Below, one piece after another: positions 10,183 through 13,428 of a stretch of 20,729 bases of DNA (position 1 is its first letter; every line of letters begins with the position of its first letter). The translations under genes and the position numbers were made by a program. The DNA comes from a virus. Where the stretch lies: positions 1 to 20,729 of the IMG/VR virus record IMGVR_UViG_3300048029_000182; one strand, written 5' to 3'. Below the pieces are notes generated by a model. The model had not been told where the DNA came from and did not search any database. It was given only the letters and a program-made list of their open reading frames with translations.

Positions 10183-10718
10183 ATCGCCTCAACGCACGCA
10201 AAGGTGAAGCCGTATAGACTAGCTCGGTTTATGTTCCACTCGATTTCATTGCTTGCAAGACGCCATGTCCCTTTTGGCAATGTAAAGTCCATGGAAGTGC
10301 TAGCCGTTATCGCAGTTCTCAGCGGTGGCATAATGTCTATCGTACTAGCGCCAATATCTGTGAGGATATACAGCACGCCGTTGATCTCGAAGTAATCACC
10401 AACAACCGCACCTGTTACCGATCCCGTTACAGTAGTCGCATTGCGGGTGCCGCTTGTAATTGAGCCGGTCGCAGTGGTGTTGTGCAATGGATTACCCATT
10501 GTGAACGTGCTGCCTTGGCCTCTTAGTGACGCAAAGAACGCCTCAACCTGTTTGGCGTCTGATCGTTTTAGCGGTGGCAACGTGACCTCTGCCTCCCACC
10601 TTACGCCTTGATGCTGGTAAACCTGCTGGTCAAAAGTAAACGGTGACGTACTAATCGACGTGGCCGAACGCAAGCGCATGGTCATTGAGGTGAAACCGAT
10701 ATTAGGAAAAGCCGCCAT
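10179..10718 (-). CDS. Tail tip protein, distal-tail/minor-tail-like
   Basis: This 179-residue protein, the first after the tape measure, is in the slot of lambda gpM or GTA distal tail (DUF2460-like) proteins, which form the ring at the end of the tail tube. Visible segments are 'SPFTFDQQVYQHQGVRWEAE' (about 27-46), 'VTLPPLKRSDAKQVEAFFAS' with 'LRGQGSTFTMGNPL' (about 46-80), a beta-rich middle with 'GDYFEINGVLYILTDI', 'IDIMPPLRTAI', and the ending 'LPKGTWRLASNEIEWNINRA'. The 'L..G..F.MG.PL' and '.I.PPLR..I' pattern recurs in a family of phage minor tail proteins. The exact ring it forms is inferred from gene order. It overlaps the next gene by 4 bases. Confidence 0.7.
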   Translation of the reverse strand: MAAFPNIGFTSMTMRLRSATSISTSPFTFDQQVYQHQGVRWEAEVTLPPLKRSDAKQVEAFFASLRGQGSTFTMGNPLHNTTATGSITSGTRNATTVTGSVTGAVVGDYFEINGVLYILTDIGASTIDIMPPLRTAITASTSMDFTLPKGTWRLASNEIEWNINRASLYGFTFACVEAI

Positions 10719-12544
10719 TATGCACCCACCATCGCTTTGCTAAAGCCACCGCCACGCATCCTAGAGTCTGCCACAGCCGCTTTCGCCGCGTTACTAATCT
10801 GAGGTAGTAGGTTAGCAATCTCTGCCCGTACGGTTTGCTGTACGCCTGTAGTGACATTTATGTGCTGGACAACGGTAACACCACCGCCACCAAGCTGGTC
10901 ATTCGGCACGACGCGCCCTGTGGTGCTAGGGATAAATAGTTCTGGTCCTTTCTCACCTACAATCGCAGGTCGCCCGCCAGTGGCTACGCCTCCATTTGCG
11001 AACTGAGGCAGGCCACCGCCACCGCCACCGGCACCGGCACCGGCACCGGCACCGCCACCAAATCCGCCGGTAATTGCGCCAAAGGCCGCATCTACAAGAT
11101 ACTTTTGAACGAGAATCCTAATCAAGCTGTCGACTACACTTTTAGCCATGCTTTTTATCGCGTCGCTGAAGTTCTTAGCGCCTGTAATAGCCGAAGTAAA
11201 TGAATCACCTAAGCCTGTGATAGCTTGGTCACCTAGCTTTTCAAGCTGTGGTGTTAGGTCTCCTGCTAGCTGTCGGGTGCGCTGCAAGCTAGCCATAAAG
11301 GTCTCGAAGGCGCTTGGCATTTCGTCTTGCAAATTACCAGCTAAATCACTTAGGCTTTCAGTTGTAGTTCCAATCTTGCCTTTGATTGACTCTAAGGTCG
11401 TGACGATTGGCCCAGAGTCAAAAGCAGTAAATAATCCTAAATCACCGCTTTCCTCTCGAACCCTTTGCATTTCTTTTAAAACTGCAAGCTCTTCAGTTAA
11501 CCTAGCTATATGCTTAGGGGCATTCCTCTTTTGTCGGTTGTTACCCTCTGTCTGTTGTCGTTGATACATCTTTAACGTCTCAGTAACGTCATGGATTCTA
11601 ACGGCTAGCTCAGAGGCAGACTTTTGGTCGTCAGGCGTAAATAGACCAGTCATGCGCCCTTTAATGAGTATAAGTTCATTAGCGAATGCACTAACGCCTT
11701 GAGAAAGTTTTTCAAAACCTTTAATGGCAATTATTAGTCCATCTATAAGGTATGTTGCTAATCCGTCTGCAAACTTTTTAACACTTTCGTCGGTCTTACC
11801 AAAACTTGCGCTTACTTTTTTGGTAATTAGGTCTGCAAGTGCAGATATTGCGGGAGCCAGAGAAGCTACGGTCTGTTTGACTACCCCACTGAATAATGAC
11901 TGCATTCGGAATAATGCGTCGTTTGCATCTTCAACACCTTTCGCCGCCTTTGCTGACATGACAACGCCAAGCATTCTTGCTTCACCTATTAAGTCGGTCA
12001 GGCCGTCACGACCCAAAGCAAGAGTGTTTACAAGTGCCGCACCCTCAGAGTCGAATAACTTAAATGCTATTTTGAGAGGATTCACACCTTTAGTTTTTGC
12101 CTCTTCAAAAGCATCAGCTAAAGTTAGCATCTGCTGGTCTAAAGGCAGTTGAGTCAGTTTTCGAGCGTCAATATTTAGCTCACGCAATGCGCCCTTGGCC
12201 TCACCTGTGCCAACAGCCGCCTCTGCCGTTCGACGAGTGAACCGCTGAAGCGCCATGTTCATCGTGTTGACTTCGACGCCCGTTAGTTGGCCTGCGTACT
12301 GCAAGGCACTTAAGGCTTCGGTGGTAGTGCCTATTCTCCCCGCTGTTTTAGCTAGCGCATCGGTAGCTTTTAGTGAATTAGATATGAGCAAGCCAAGACC
12401 GCCAGCGCCTACTGCGGCAACCAGTGCGGTCTTAAAGCTAAAGAAAACTTTGGAGAGCTTGCCGAAAGCGGCCTGTATCGACCGCAGAGCCTTTTGCGTT
12501 TGGTCAAACGCCTTGATAATGATGCTTACGGTTTCAGTTGCCAT
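10718..12544 (-). CDS. Tape measure protein
   Basis: The tape measure determines tail length and passes into the host during DNA entry. The 608 residues are largely helical. An N-terminal segment has a hydrophobic stretch at about residues 36-57 (FKTALVAAVGAGGLGLLISN), then 'RIGTTTEALSALQYAGQLTG', found in many lambda-type tape measures. A second hydrophobic helix appears near 265 (YLIDGLIIAIKGFEK). Close to the end come a Gly/Ala low-complexity run (about 494-510) and 'FANGGVATGGRPAIVGEKGP' followed by 'ELFIPSTTGRVVPNDQL', the classic C-terminal signature. At roughly 0.15 nm per residue this length predicts a tail near 90 nm. The start overlaps the end of the GT frame; the stop shares TAATG with the next gene. 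No peptidase or lysozyme domain is evident. Confidence 0.93.
   Translation of the reverse strand: MATETVSIIIKAFDQTQKALRSIQAAFGKLSKVFFSFKTALVAAVGAGGLGLLISNSLKATDALAKTAGRIGTTTEALSALQYAGQLTGVEVNTMNMALQRFTRRTAEAAVGTGEAKGALRELNIDARKLTQLPLDQQMLTLADAFEEAKTKGVNPLKIAFKLFDSEGAALVNTLALGRDGLTDLIGEARMLGVVMSAKAAKGVEDANDALFRMQSLFSGVVKQTVASLAPAISALADLITKKVSASFGKTDESVKKFADGLATYLIDGLIIAIKGFEKLSQGVSAFANELILIKGRMTGLFTPDDQKSASELAVRIHDVTETLKMYQRQQTEGNNRQKRNAPKHIARLTEELAVLKEMQRVREESGDLGLFTAFDSGPIVTTLESIKGKIGTTTESLSDLAGNLQDEMPSAFETFMASLQRTRQLAGDLTPQLEKLGDQAITGLGDSFTSAITGAKNFSDAIKSMAKSVVDSLIRILVQKYLVDAAFGAITGGFGGGAGAGAGAGGGGGGLPQFANGGVATGGRPAIVGEKGPELFIPSTTGRVVPNDQLGGGGVTVVQHINVTTGVQQTVRAEIANLLPQISNAAKAAVADSRMRGGGFSKAMVGA
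11026..11054 (-). repeat. In-frame hexanucleotide tandem repeat in tape measure gene
   Basis: On the plus strand CACCGG repeats almost perfectly about five times, flanked by related CACCGC units. On the coding strand it encodes the alternating Gly-Ala run of the tape measure. Because the unit is six bases, copy-number change would keep the frame and only alter the linker length. Confidence 0.7.
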
Positions 12545-13027
12545 CGTTCGACTCGCTCATAATCTTGAAGTAAGCGAGCCACTCATGGAACTCAGTAACC
12601 GAAATCTGCTCTACTTCTTCGATAGTCTTGTGTAACCGATCAGCCAAGGCAATTAAGTTCATCCGCGACTGATCGGACTTTAGTTTTTTTCGACATCCTC
12701 AAACCCCTCGATAGTGCCAAACATCTCATTGGCAATATGCGAGACGACGGTTGTCTCTTCCCCCATTAAGTCGATGCGATCTTCAGCCGAGGTGAACAGT
12801 TTTTCGCCATCCTTGCTCTCAGCCTTCATAAGAATCAAATCAACCATCGCCGCAATGCTTGGGTTTTGCATTACTTGAGGATGACGCTTCTGCAACTCAT
12901 TGAGGTCATAGCAGGTTAGAGGGCGACAGTACAAAACAAAATCGCCGTCACCGTCCCCCCATTCTGCAACGCTAATTTTGCGGCGCGAGCCTTTACGACG
13001 CGCCCGCAATTCTTTAGCGAGACCCAT
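12534..13027 (-). CDS. Tail assembly chaperone, GT-type -1 frameshift fusion
   Basis: This is the minor fusion product made by ribosomes slipping one base back at 12689-12683. It should be 164 residues: the 115 of the unshifted protein plus 49 encoded in the -1 frame (12683-12537), ending with TGA at 12536-12534 inside the tape measure start. The extension includes 'MNLIALADRLHKTIEEVEQI' and 'SVTEFHEWLAYFKIM', closely matching the T-domain pattern of other phages (ALA..LGKT.EE......EF.EWLAYF). In lambda the T-domain recruits the tail tube protein to the tape measure-chaperone complex. The extension has no good independent ribosome site. Without the frameshift, 135 bases ahead of the tape measure gene would be untranslated, which is unusual in this packed operon. 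Confidence 0.87.
12636..12689 (-). promoter_or_regulatory. Programmed -1 ribosomal frameshift signal
   Basis: Three parts are visible in order on the minus strand. The slippery heptamer A AAA AAC (12689-12683) is in the correct X-XXY-YYZ phase. A 6-base spacer TAAAGT (12682-12677) contains the zero-frame stop. A perfect 8-bp stem follows, CCGATCAG (12676-12669) pairing with CTGATCGG (12643-12636), with a 25-base loop that can be shortened by a T-G, C-G, G-T extension. Spacer length and stem position fit known stimulators of -1 slippage. Confidence 0.87.
12680..13027 (-). CDS. Tail assembly chaperone, G-type (unshifted product)
   Basis: The 115-residue product is the abundant form of the two-protein chaperone set that coats the tape measure during tail assembly, as lambda gpG does. 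It has a basic N-terminus (MGLAKELRARRKGSRRK), then 'VLYCRPLTCYDLNELQKRHP' (about residues 31-50), a pattern seen in many small phage chaperones, and a helical C-terminus ending GFEDVEKN. The last codons are GAA AAA AAC TAA, which place the slippery heptamer A AAA AAC exactly in frame at the stop. Its position between tube and tape measure genes is diagnostic. Alternatives are unlikely given the frameshift signal. Confidence 0.88.
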   Translation of the reverse strand: MGLAKELRARRKGSRRKISVAEWGDGDGDFVLYCRPLTCYDLNELQKRHPQVMQNPSIAAMVDLILMKAESKDGEKLFTSAEDRIDLMGEETTVVSHIANEMFGTIEGFEDVEKN

Positions 13028-13428
13028 TAGTTAGACGCTTCTGTGATTGCGCCTGATACCTGCACGGAAAACGACGCCTCAACGAGACCATCGTATGACG
13101 CCGAAATAGTTTTAGCGGTTACGATCCCAGCGCCTGCGTAATACTTCTCGCCTCCGCCTGTTCCTGTTGGGTGGATTTCCCAGTCGATAGCCGCACCAGA
13201 ATCAAGCACCAAATGCTGTGCGTCTGCGTCATCCCAAAGCGCGTCGATAGTTAGAGTCGCGTCTTTGAGGCTAGAAAGGTAAGACTTAACAGTGTCACCC
13301 ATAACTGTGTCTTCGATTGTGTCCGCAGTCTCGTCGATGCTGTATGAACGCACCTCACCTACAACCGCTTCACTTCCTCCACTAACGGCAACCTTAACCG
13401 AGCCGCTTGAGCCTTTATGTGTAGCCAT
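13027..13428 (-). CDS. Major tail (tube) protein
   Basis: The tube protein forms the stacked hexameric rings of the tail. The 133-residue sequence is beta-rich with small residues: 'GSSGSVKVAVSGGSEAVVGE', 'RSYSIDETADTIEDTVMGDT' (about 27-46), 'KSYLSSLKDATLTIDALWDD', 'YYAGAGIVTAKTISASYDGL' and the final 'VEASFSVQVSGAITEAS'. The 'YSIDETADTIEDTVMGD..KSYLSSLKDAT' pattern is typical of short tail tube proteins of siphoviruses. It lies directly before the frameshifted tail assembly chaperones, as in lambda-like gene order (V, G, GT, H). It shares a TAATG stop-start overlap with the chaperone gene, so the two are probably coupled although their needed amounts differ greatly. Confidence 0.9.
   Translation of the reverse strand: MATHKGSSGSVKVAVSGGSEAVVGEVRSYSIDETADTIEDTVMGDTVKSYLSSLKDATLTIDALWDDADAQHLVLDSGAAIDWEIHPTGTGGGEKYYAGAGIVTAKTISASYDGLVEASFSVQVSGAITEASN

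Follow-up and report, generated by a model that had tools for sequence, protein, structure and literature searches.

A short open reading frame between the tail tube and tape measure genes of a marine siphophage ends in GTC GAA AAA AAC TAA, and the locus raises the question of whether it encodes a single protein or, by a slip of the ribosome just ahead of its stop codon, two. We favor the second reading, at a probability of roughly nine in ten: judging from sequence comparisons, the locus carries a -1 programmed ribosomal frameshift signal that would make a G/GT pair of tail assembly chaperones of the HK97/lambda type.

Genomic context of the locus

The window, i.e., the 20.7-kb IMG/VR virus record analyzed here over its whole length, carries the structural module of a siphophage on its minus strand in the order terminase, portal-like protein, capsid, head-tail connectors, tail terminator, tail tube, G, tape measure, and distal tail proteins (the names of the head genes were read from gene order and typical sequence and were tested in part). 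The small G/T gene pair lies directly between the tail tube and tape measure genes (Table 1). Overlap of T with the tape measure gene is 11 nt long in 9 of 12 representatives of the window clade and 1 nt long in 16/17 representatives of clade C and 19/19 of clade D.

A blastn search of the window DNA against a phage collection gave no match, and isolate relatives were reached by tblastn. The window terminase is ca. 50% identical to pelagiphage terminases, and its G/T proteins are ca. 40% identical to those of Roseobacter phages CRP-406, CRP-811, CRP-821 to CRP-823, and CRP-831. The hosts of the related marine phages are Roseobacter and Pelagibacter. Conservation was assessed in 371 loci that comprise five clades and one Moraxella phage, with 80 close relatives of the window (83-99% identity in G) and about 290 more distant ones for which isolates from Roseobacter, Pelagibacter, and an uncultured host served as seeds. 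Below, clade A is the clade of the window, B1 (with the CRP-822-type isolates) and B2 are groups of the CRP-like clade, C includes HTVC111P, E includes DSL-LC06, and D, with HTVC026P, is a pelagiphage clade.

Table 1. Coordinates of the features discussed in the text (window numbering).
Feature	Position	Strand	Basis or remark
Tail tube gene	13027-13428	minus	PF06199, phrog_1407
G, putative tail assembly chaperone CDS, 115 aa without stop	12683-13027 (12680 with stop)	minus	Open reading frame, gene position, fold match
SD-like GAGGA, candidate 5' stimulator	12696-12700	minus	6 nt upstream of heptamer; GAG bias
Slippery heptamer A_AAA_AAC	12683-12689	minus	X_XXY_YYZ phase; conservation
0-frame stop TAA	12680-12682	minus	Directly after heptamer; adjacent in 368/371 loci
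5' arm of stem, CCGATCAG	12669-12676	minus	6 nt after heptamer; candidate stimulator
3' arm of stem, CTGATCGG	12636-12643	minus	Covaries with 5' arm
T domain, -1 frame, 49 codons, LKSDQSRMNLIALADRLHKTIEEVEQISVTEFHEWLAYFKIMSESNDGN	12537-12683	minus	Open frame, omega, phrog_337
T stop TGA	12534-12536	minus	11 nt inside tape measure gene
Overlap of T stop and tape measure start, 11 nt, ATGGCAACTGA	12534-12544	minus	Reading of the open frames
Tape measure gene	10718-12544	minus	phrog_9483, PF09718; start at 12544

A slippery heptamer next to the stop codon of G

The initial annotation had described a heptamer in the correct phase at the end of G, a perfect inverted repeat six bases further on, a -1 frame that stays open for 49 codons and stops just inside the tape measure gene, and a second product of 164 residues, all of which is borne out by our reading of the window. 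The heptamer A_AAA_AAC (read from 12689 to 12683) follows the X_XXY_YYZ pattern near the end of G such that a -1 slip gives a fusion, and G plus its -1 extension add up to 164 aa. AAAAAAC by itself is not rare in the window (6 matches versus 3.5 expected), so that its weight rests on position and conservation; the longer pattern AAAAAACTRA occurs twice versus 0.11 times expected.

Conservation of this arrangement is nearly complete. A_AAA_AA(C/G/T) ends exactly at the G stop in 368/371 loci, including 81/81 of the window clade, and the three exceptions (L333-L335) have a single TCC codon between heptamer and stop; homologues that lack the heptamer or interrupt the -1 frame by stops were thus not what we found. 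Clade E has Glu, Ala, Gly, Ser, Val, or Ile at codon -9, yet the third position of this codon, which supplies the X of the heptamer, is A throughout. Host genomes gave a single locus, L375 from a Pseudomonadales MAG (64% identity in G), in a search for which the broad profile A7 was too divergent; L375 has a canonical G_GGA_AAC in place of the A-run and retains the adjacent stop, the T frame, and a hairpin. Together with the third base in clade E, this replacement indicates that the X_XXY_YYZ pattern is what is kept and not the A-run as such. In E. coli, slippage at A_AAA_AAC is far weaker than at A_AAA_AAG (PMC5009743), and its efficiency in the host of the phage studied here may differ.

Candidate stimulatory elements on both sides of the heptamer

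Several nucleotides upstream of the heptamer, the window contains an SD-like element that is also visible as a codon bias among its relatives. The glutamate codon at position -18, five codons before the last 0-frame codon, is mostly GAG and not GAA (12/12 representatives of clade A, 16/16 of B1, 6/7 of B2, 16/17 of C, and 23/27 of E), and this GAG usually sits in GAGGA or GAGG. Elsewhere in G, GAG makes up 13-55% of glutamate codons, giving p-values for the bias of 8e-4 to 8e-18 that are optimistic because the representatives are related to each other. The bias is found in five of six groups and is absent from clade D (3/20). With GAGGA upstream, the heptamer, and a downstream stem, the signal has the three parts known from E. 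coli dnaX, for which the spacing between SD-like element and heptamer is close to the 6 nt seen here.

The downstream inverted repeat (CCGATCAG/CTGATCGG) is an exact match over 8 bp, set off from the heptamer by a 6-nt spacer and enclosing a loop of 25 nt, and it begins within the distance of 5-8 nt from the heptamer that we took for a stimulatory stem-loop. It occurs once in the window and in 0/100 shuffles, a control that is post hoc for the chosen sequence. The 63-nt fold, which in its minimum free energy form pairs beyond these 8 bp, reaches -18.8 kcal/mol with a z-score of -2.9 (0/200 shuffles as good), and RNAalifold predicts the identical 8-bp stem.

Covariation among relatives argues that this stem is maintained as RNA. 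All eight pairs can form in 28/28 distinct sequences of the window clade (100% of cells paired, with slid controls pairing at 5-42%), and two pairs change on both sides, from C-G to G-C and from A-U to G-C. An alternative pair of arms that occurs in relatives is GCGGTCAG/CTGACCGC. Cells with double changes number 20 compared to 7.3 in shuffles, a value reached by 0/500. The number of independent events is small, since the two covarying pairs changed jointly and did so in no more than one or two lineages. The change in the 5' arm (GAT to GGT) replaces Asp with Gly in T and the changes in the 3' arm are synonymous, which argues for selection at the RNA level. In group B2, these arms are part of a longer hairpin; within the 8 bp, a third pair covaries there, and further pair types occur (A-U to U-A or C-G). 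Shuffling of synonymous codons gave a moderate signal per single sequence (median p 0.045 in clade A) and a weak one for B1 and C since the amino acids limit the possible shuffles, and covariation and slide controls were therefore used as evidence for structure instead. No Rfam family matched within the window.

Other routes to a second product

It seems quite improbable that T is instead produced by transcriptional slippage, i.e., that RNA polymerase stutters on the run of seven A's and that some mRNAs with an extra A are then translated in the ordinary way. The run has this length in most loci and reaches nine in clade D, and there is a precedent in the A9 of Thermus thermophilus dnaX (PMC3711429). 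However, most published motifs have at least 8 bases in the run (PMC3711429), and a homopolymer of about this length is present neither in the window (7) nor in its clade (6 to 7). The run has only six A's in locus L080 of clade A and in roughly half of clade E, and L375 has no A-run at all (GGGAAAC) and keeps the junction. Moreover, the conserved downstream stem is still untranscribed when the polymerase is on the run, and the GAGG motif is meaningful for ribosomes only. Transcriptional slippage is thus disfavored for the window clade on these comparisons and credible in clade D only. There, all 20 representatives carry nine A's, and the lack of both stimulators next to this run suggests that clade D works by transcriptional or tandem slippage like T. 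thermophilus dnaX.

It is far less plausible still that T is a separate gene with an internal start and no frameshift, for which the obvious candidate would be the ATG in the hairpin loop (MNLIALAD), present in 8/12 representatives of the window clade. No SD sequence precedes this ATG on inspection by eye, it becomes TTA, CTG, ATT, or TTC in relatives, and the stretch is free of ATG, GTG, and TTG in 16/17 representatives of C, 20/20 of D, and 13/16 of B1. Nor would an internal start account for the conservation of the heptamer and of the first residues of T. The same replacements speak against a proposal of the initial annotation by which this ATG could couple unfolding of the stem to slippage. 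Internal initiation was also considered as a route for the whole family and rejected, as there is no conserved ATG, GTG, or TTG and the -1 frame is open for only 2-24 codons upstream.

The T frame is a conserved coding sequence

The -1 frame is under purifying selection at the protein level according to substitution patterns in every group. Based on Nei-Gojobori counts, omega for the T frame is 0.07 in clade A, 0.11 in B1, 0.18 in B2, 0.20 in both C and D, and 0.13 in E, compared to 0.68-1.17 for the continued G frame (about 1.2 in the window clade) and 2.2-3.5 for the third frame; both of these alternative frames behave as non-coding, with 3.5-6.3 stops each per sequence. The idea that the -1 frame is open by chance, or that T has decayed and only G remains in use, can hardly be reconciled with these values of 0.07-0.20, with the stops in the other frames, and with the 39 codons of T that align without gaps across the five main clades.

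Homology searches place both parts of the product among tail assembly chaperones. Matches to phrog_344 ("tail assembly chaperone") were obtained for 28/42 G proteins of relatives, and matches to phrog_337 for 23/48 of their T domains; HK97 gp13 and the T region of HK97 gp14, respectively, belong to these two families as well (E 5e-29 for HK97 T). The window proteins match PHROGs weakly, G with phrog_20784 (E 0.0099) and T with phrog_337 (E 1.6e-4). Together, the phrog_337 matches of the window, its relatives, and HK97 indicate that the ending which the initial annotation had called T-domain-like is homologous to a known T domain. Pfam gave no relevant match for G or T, and a sequence-profile search of the PDB gave chance matches only. 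An AlphaFold model of the G chain alone (pLDDT 83) has the HK97 tail assembly chaperone 2OB9 as its best PDB match (Foldseek E 2.8e-3; VIA-align Z 8.7, 3.8 A over 100 residues) and also matches named tail chaperones among viral models, pointing to a tail-chaperone fold.

As the initial annotation had anticipated, ordinary gene calling misses the second product: T is not annotated in any of the examined isolate records of the phage family. Two pelagiphage records have an antisense "hypothetical protein" over T, and in the record of the Moraxella phage, the T region is listed on its own under the name "tail protein". Since T is unannotated and G is often called "hypothetical" in records of related marine phages, the chaperone linking tube and tape measure is missing there.

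Apparent exchange of the stem's 3' partner among relatives

We also scanned, in an unbiased manner, every stem that could form from a 5' arm within the first 40 nt. This recovered the stem of the window clade and found stems in A, B1, B2, C, and E that share a 5' arm starting 4-7 nt past the heptamer and differ in their 3' arms. Numbered from the first base of the heptamer, columns 14-21 pair with 47-54 in A and B2, columns 13-19 with 29-35 in C (7 bp, 9-nt loop), columns 14-23 with 86-95 in E (62-nt loop), and columns 14-24 with 106-116 in B1 (81-nt loop). The long-range stem of E is 97.9% paired with four covarying pairs (covariation score reached by 0/500 shuffles), and that of B1 is 99.1% paired (slid controls 26-46%) with one covarying pair (2/500). 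RNAalifold predicts both long stems as well, with no conserved inner helix. The stem of C is nearly invariant and consequently has no support from covariation, and for clade D a scan to +300 nt gave only short, A/U-rich, and unconvincing candidates.

We lean, by a small margin over even odds, towards a family in which slip site, 5' arm, and frameshift outcome are retained and the rest is exchanged: the 3' arm would lie in four different places inside T (a 7-bp stem with 9-nt loop, a hairpin of 8-18 bp, and stems with 62-nt and 81-nt loops), and one clade would have an A9 run in place of stem and SD-like element, probably a change from ribosomal to transcriptional slippage. In a tree of G and T, clades A, C, D, and E each form one side of a branch, and we claim no direction of change because the split between B1 and B2 and the deep branching order are unsure. 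If this view is true, phage tail genes use long-range stems to stimulate frameshifting, and the family forms a natural series on the replacement of a stimulator while the protein is kept.

Proposed mechanism

The -1 frameshift reading of the initial annotation is supported by the heptamer, selection on the T frame, stem covariation, and PHROG matches, and we infer from these sequence data that slippage takes place, that the SD-like element has an effect, and what the proteins do. Most ribosomes would translate G as far as TAA and release a product of 115 aa. For a minority, the hairpin 6 nt ahead, probably helped by pairing of the anti-SD to GAGGA 6 nt behind, would hold the ribosome on A_AAA_AAC; these ribosomes would re-pair one base upstream and enter the -1 frame ahead of the adjacent stop. 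Their product, GT, would gain the 49-residue T domain. By analogy to lambda, where G is modeled to bind the tape measure protein and T to recruit the tube protein (PMC5009743), G may coat the tape measure protein and the few GT molecules may recruit tail-tube subunits. Frameshifting of 6-7% has been measured at HK97-like chaperone sites (PMC3711429).

Comparison with known systems

G/GT frameshifting itself is textbook, and frameshifted tail chaperones, AAAAAAC sites, and AAAAAAC adjacent to a stop are already known. HK97 gp13/gp14 (2OB9) is similar in gene order, -1 frameshifting, predicted G fold, and the PHROG of T, but its slip site G_GGA_AAA is in phase with a stop several codons further on, whereas A_AAA_AAC abuts the stop here, and in HK97 an additional gene precedes the tape measure gene, whose start is overlapped by T in the window. 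The lambda G/GT frameshift, reportedly described by Xu, Hendrix, and Duda in 2004, likewise involves a G open reading frame with a -1 extension overlapping the tape measure start, and the respective roles of G and GT are presumed to apply here; its heptamer G_GGA_AAG is followed by a stop several codons on, and the likeness seen here is one of layout. The lambda mechanism has been reviewed (PMC5009743).

E. coli dnaX shares the combination of SD-like element, heptamer of the A_AAA_AAG type, and downstream hairpin (PMC5009743, PMC3711429), but its frameshift shortens the product while the one in the window extends it, and its heptamer has AAG where most clades here have AAC; the gene is unrelated and only the signals are alike. 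Acinetobacter phage Loki has AAAAAAC adjacent to the G stop (PMC5313236), and the tail chaperone of Caulobacter phage phiCbK has an AAAAAAC site (PMC3556154); the available sections of these two papers contain no comparative evidence for RNA structure. We find that a strong hairpin folds 8 nt after the Loki heptamer and that the Loki T region has no evident resemblance to T of the window family, which indicates that the layout of a hairpin after a stop-adjacent heptamer recurs. The paper on CRP-822-type phages does not mention frameshifting (PMC12629253).

In IS911 and ALIL-type elements of the IS3 family, complex or long-range downstream RNA structures stimulate bacterial -1 frameshifting (PMC5009743), compared to which B1 and E have a single long-range stem (81-nt and 62-nt loop, respectively) with no conserved inner helix and are best seen as candidate stimulators. 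The turnover of pairing partners among relatives may be the part that specialists do not expect, and some of the stimulators were possibly proposed in the 2004 study of Xu and colleagues. Among phage tail chaperones, this family provides evidence from covariation for RNA stimulators, and its natural variants (compact hairpin, long-range stem, and A9 run) make it possible to ask what stimulators need and how the ratio of two products is kept while the signal is rebuilt.

Variant slip sites and gene junctions

At clade D pelagiphage loci, 9 A's lie ahead of the stop of the tail chaperone gene G, and neither an SD-like bias nor a conserved stem was found there when looked for. Judging from sequence, clade D is a candidate for a changeover to transcriptional slippage inside the family. 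The bacterial homologue L375 carries G_GGA_AAC-TAA in place of A_AAA_AAC and retains both GAGG and the hairpin, the stem having one A.C mismatch. A codon between heptamer and stop (TCC) occurs only in L333, L334, and L335, all from clade E; each of the three retains the T frame, and the long-range stem is kept in L335, the one of them that was aligned.

The antisense genes annotated over T in two pelagiphage records are very likely spurious.

Coordinates of features in the window and at compared loci
Feature	Position	Strand	Source
A-run, clade D example	L086:1776-1788		HTVC026P
Altered heptamer, G/T homologue	L375:3322-3348		bacterial MAG contig, Pseudomonadales
Antisense "hypothetical protein" across T domain	L089:1562-1708	-	HTVC112P record annotation
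Antisense "hypothetical protein" across T domain	L091:3180-3332	-	HTVC111P record annotation
T stop/tape measure start overlap	12534-12544	-	window; also clade C and D loci
Tail fibre-like protein, 1645 aa	16-4953	-	window; read by eye
Second copy of AAAAAACTAA	20586-20595	-	window, close to contig end

Read by eye, the tail fibre-like protein contains numerous short repeats of the NTAVGYxAL type that are almost identical to one another, and its C-terminus (SDQRLKENI...) resembles an intramolecular chaperone.

T ends inside the beginning of the tape measure gene: the two share 11 nt in 9/12 loci from the window's clade, and 1 nt (TAATG) in 16/17 of clade C and 19/19 of clade D. Ribosomes that have just ended the frameshift product GT may reinitiate there and go on to translate the tape measure protein; the amounts of the two proteins would then be coupled.
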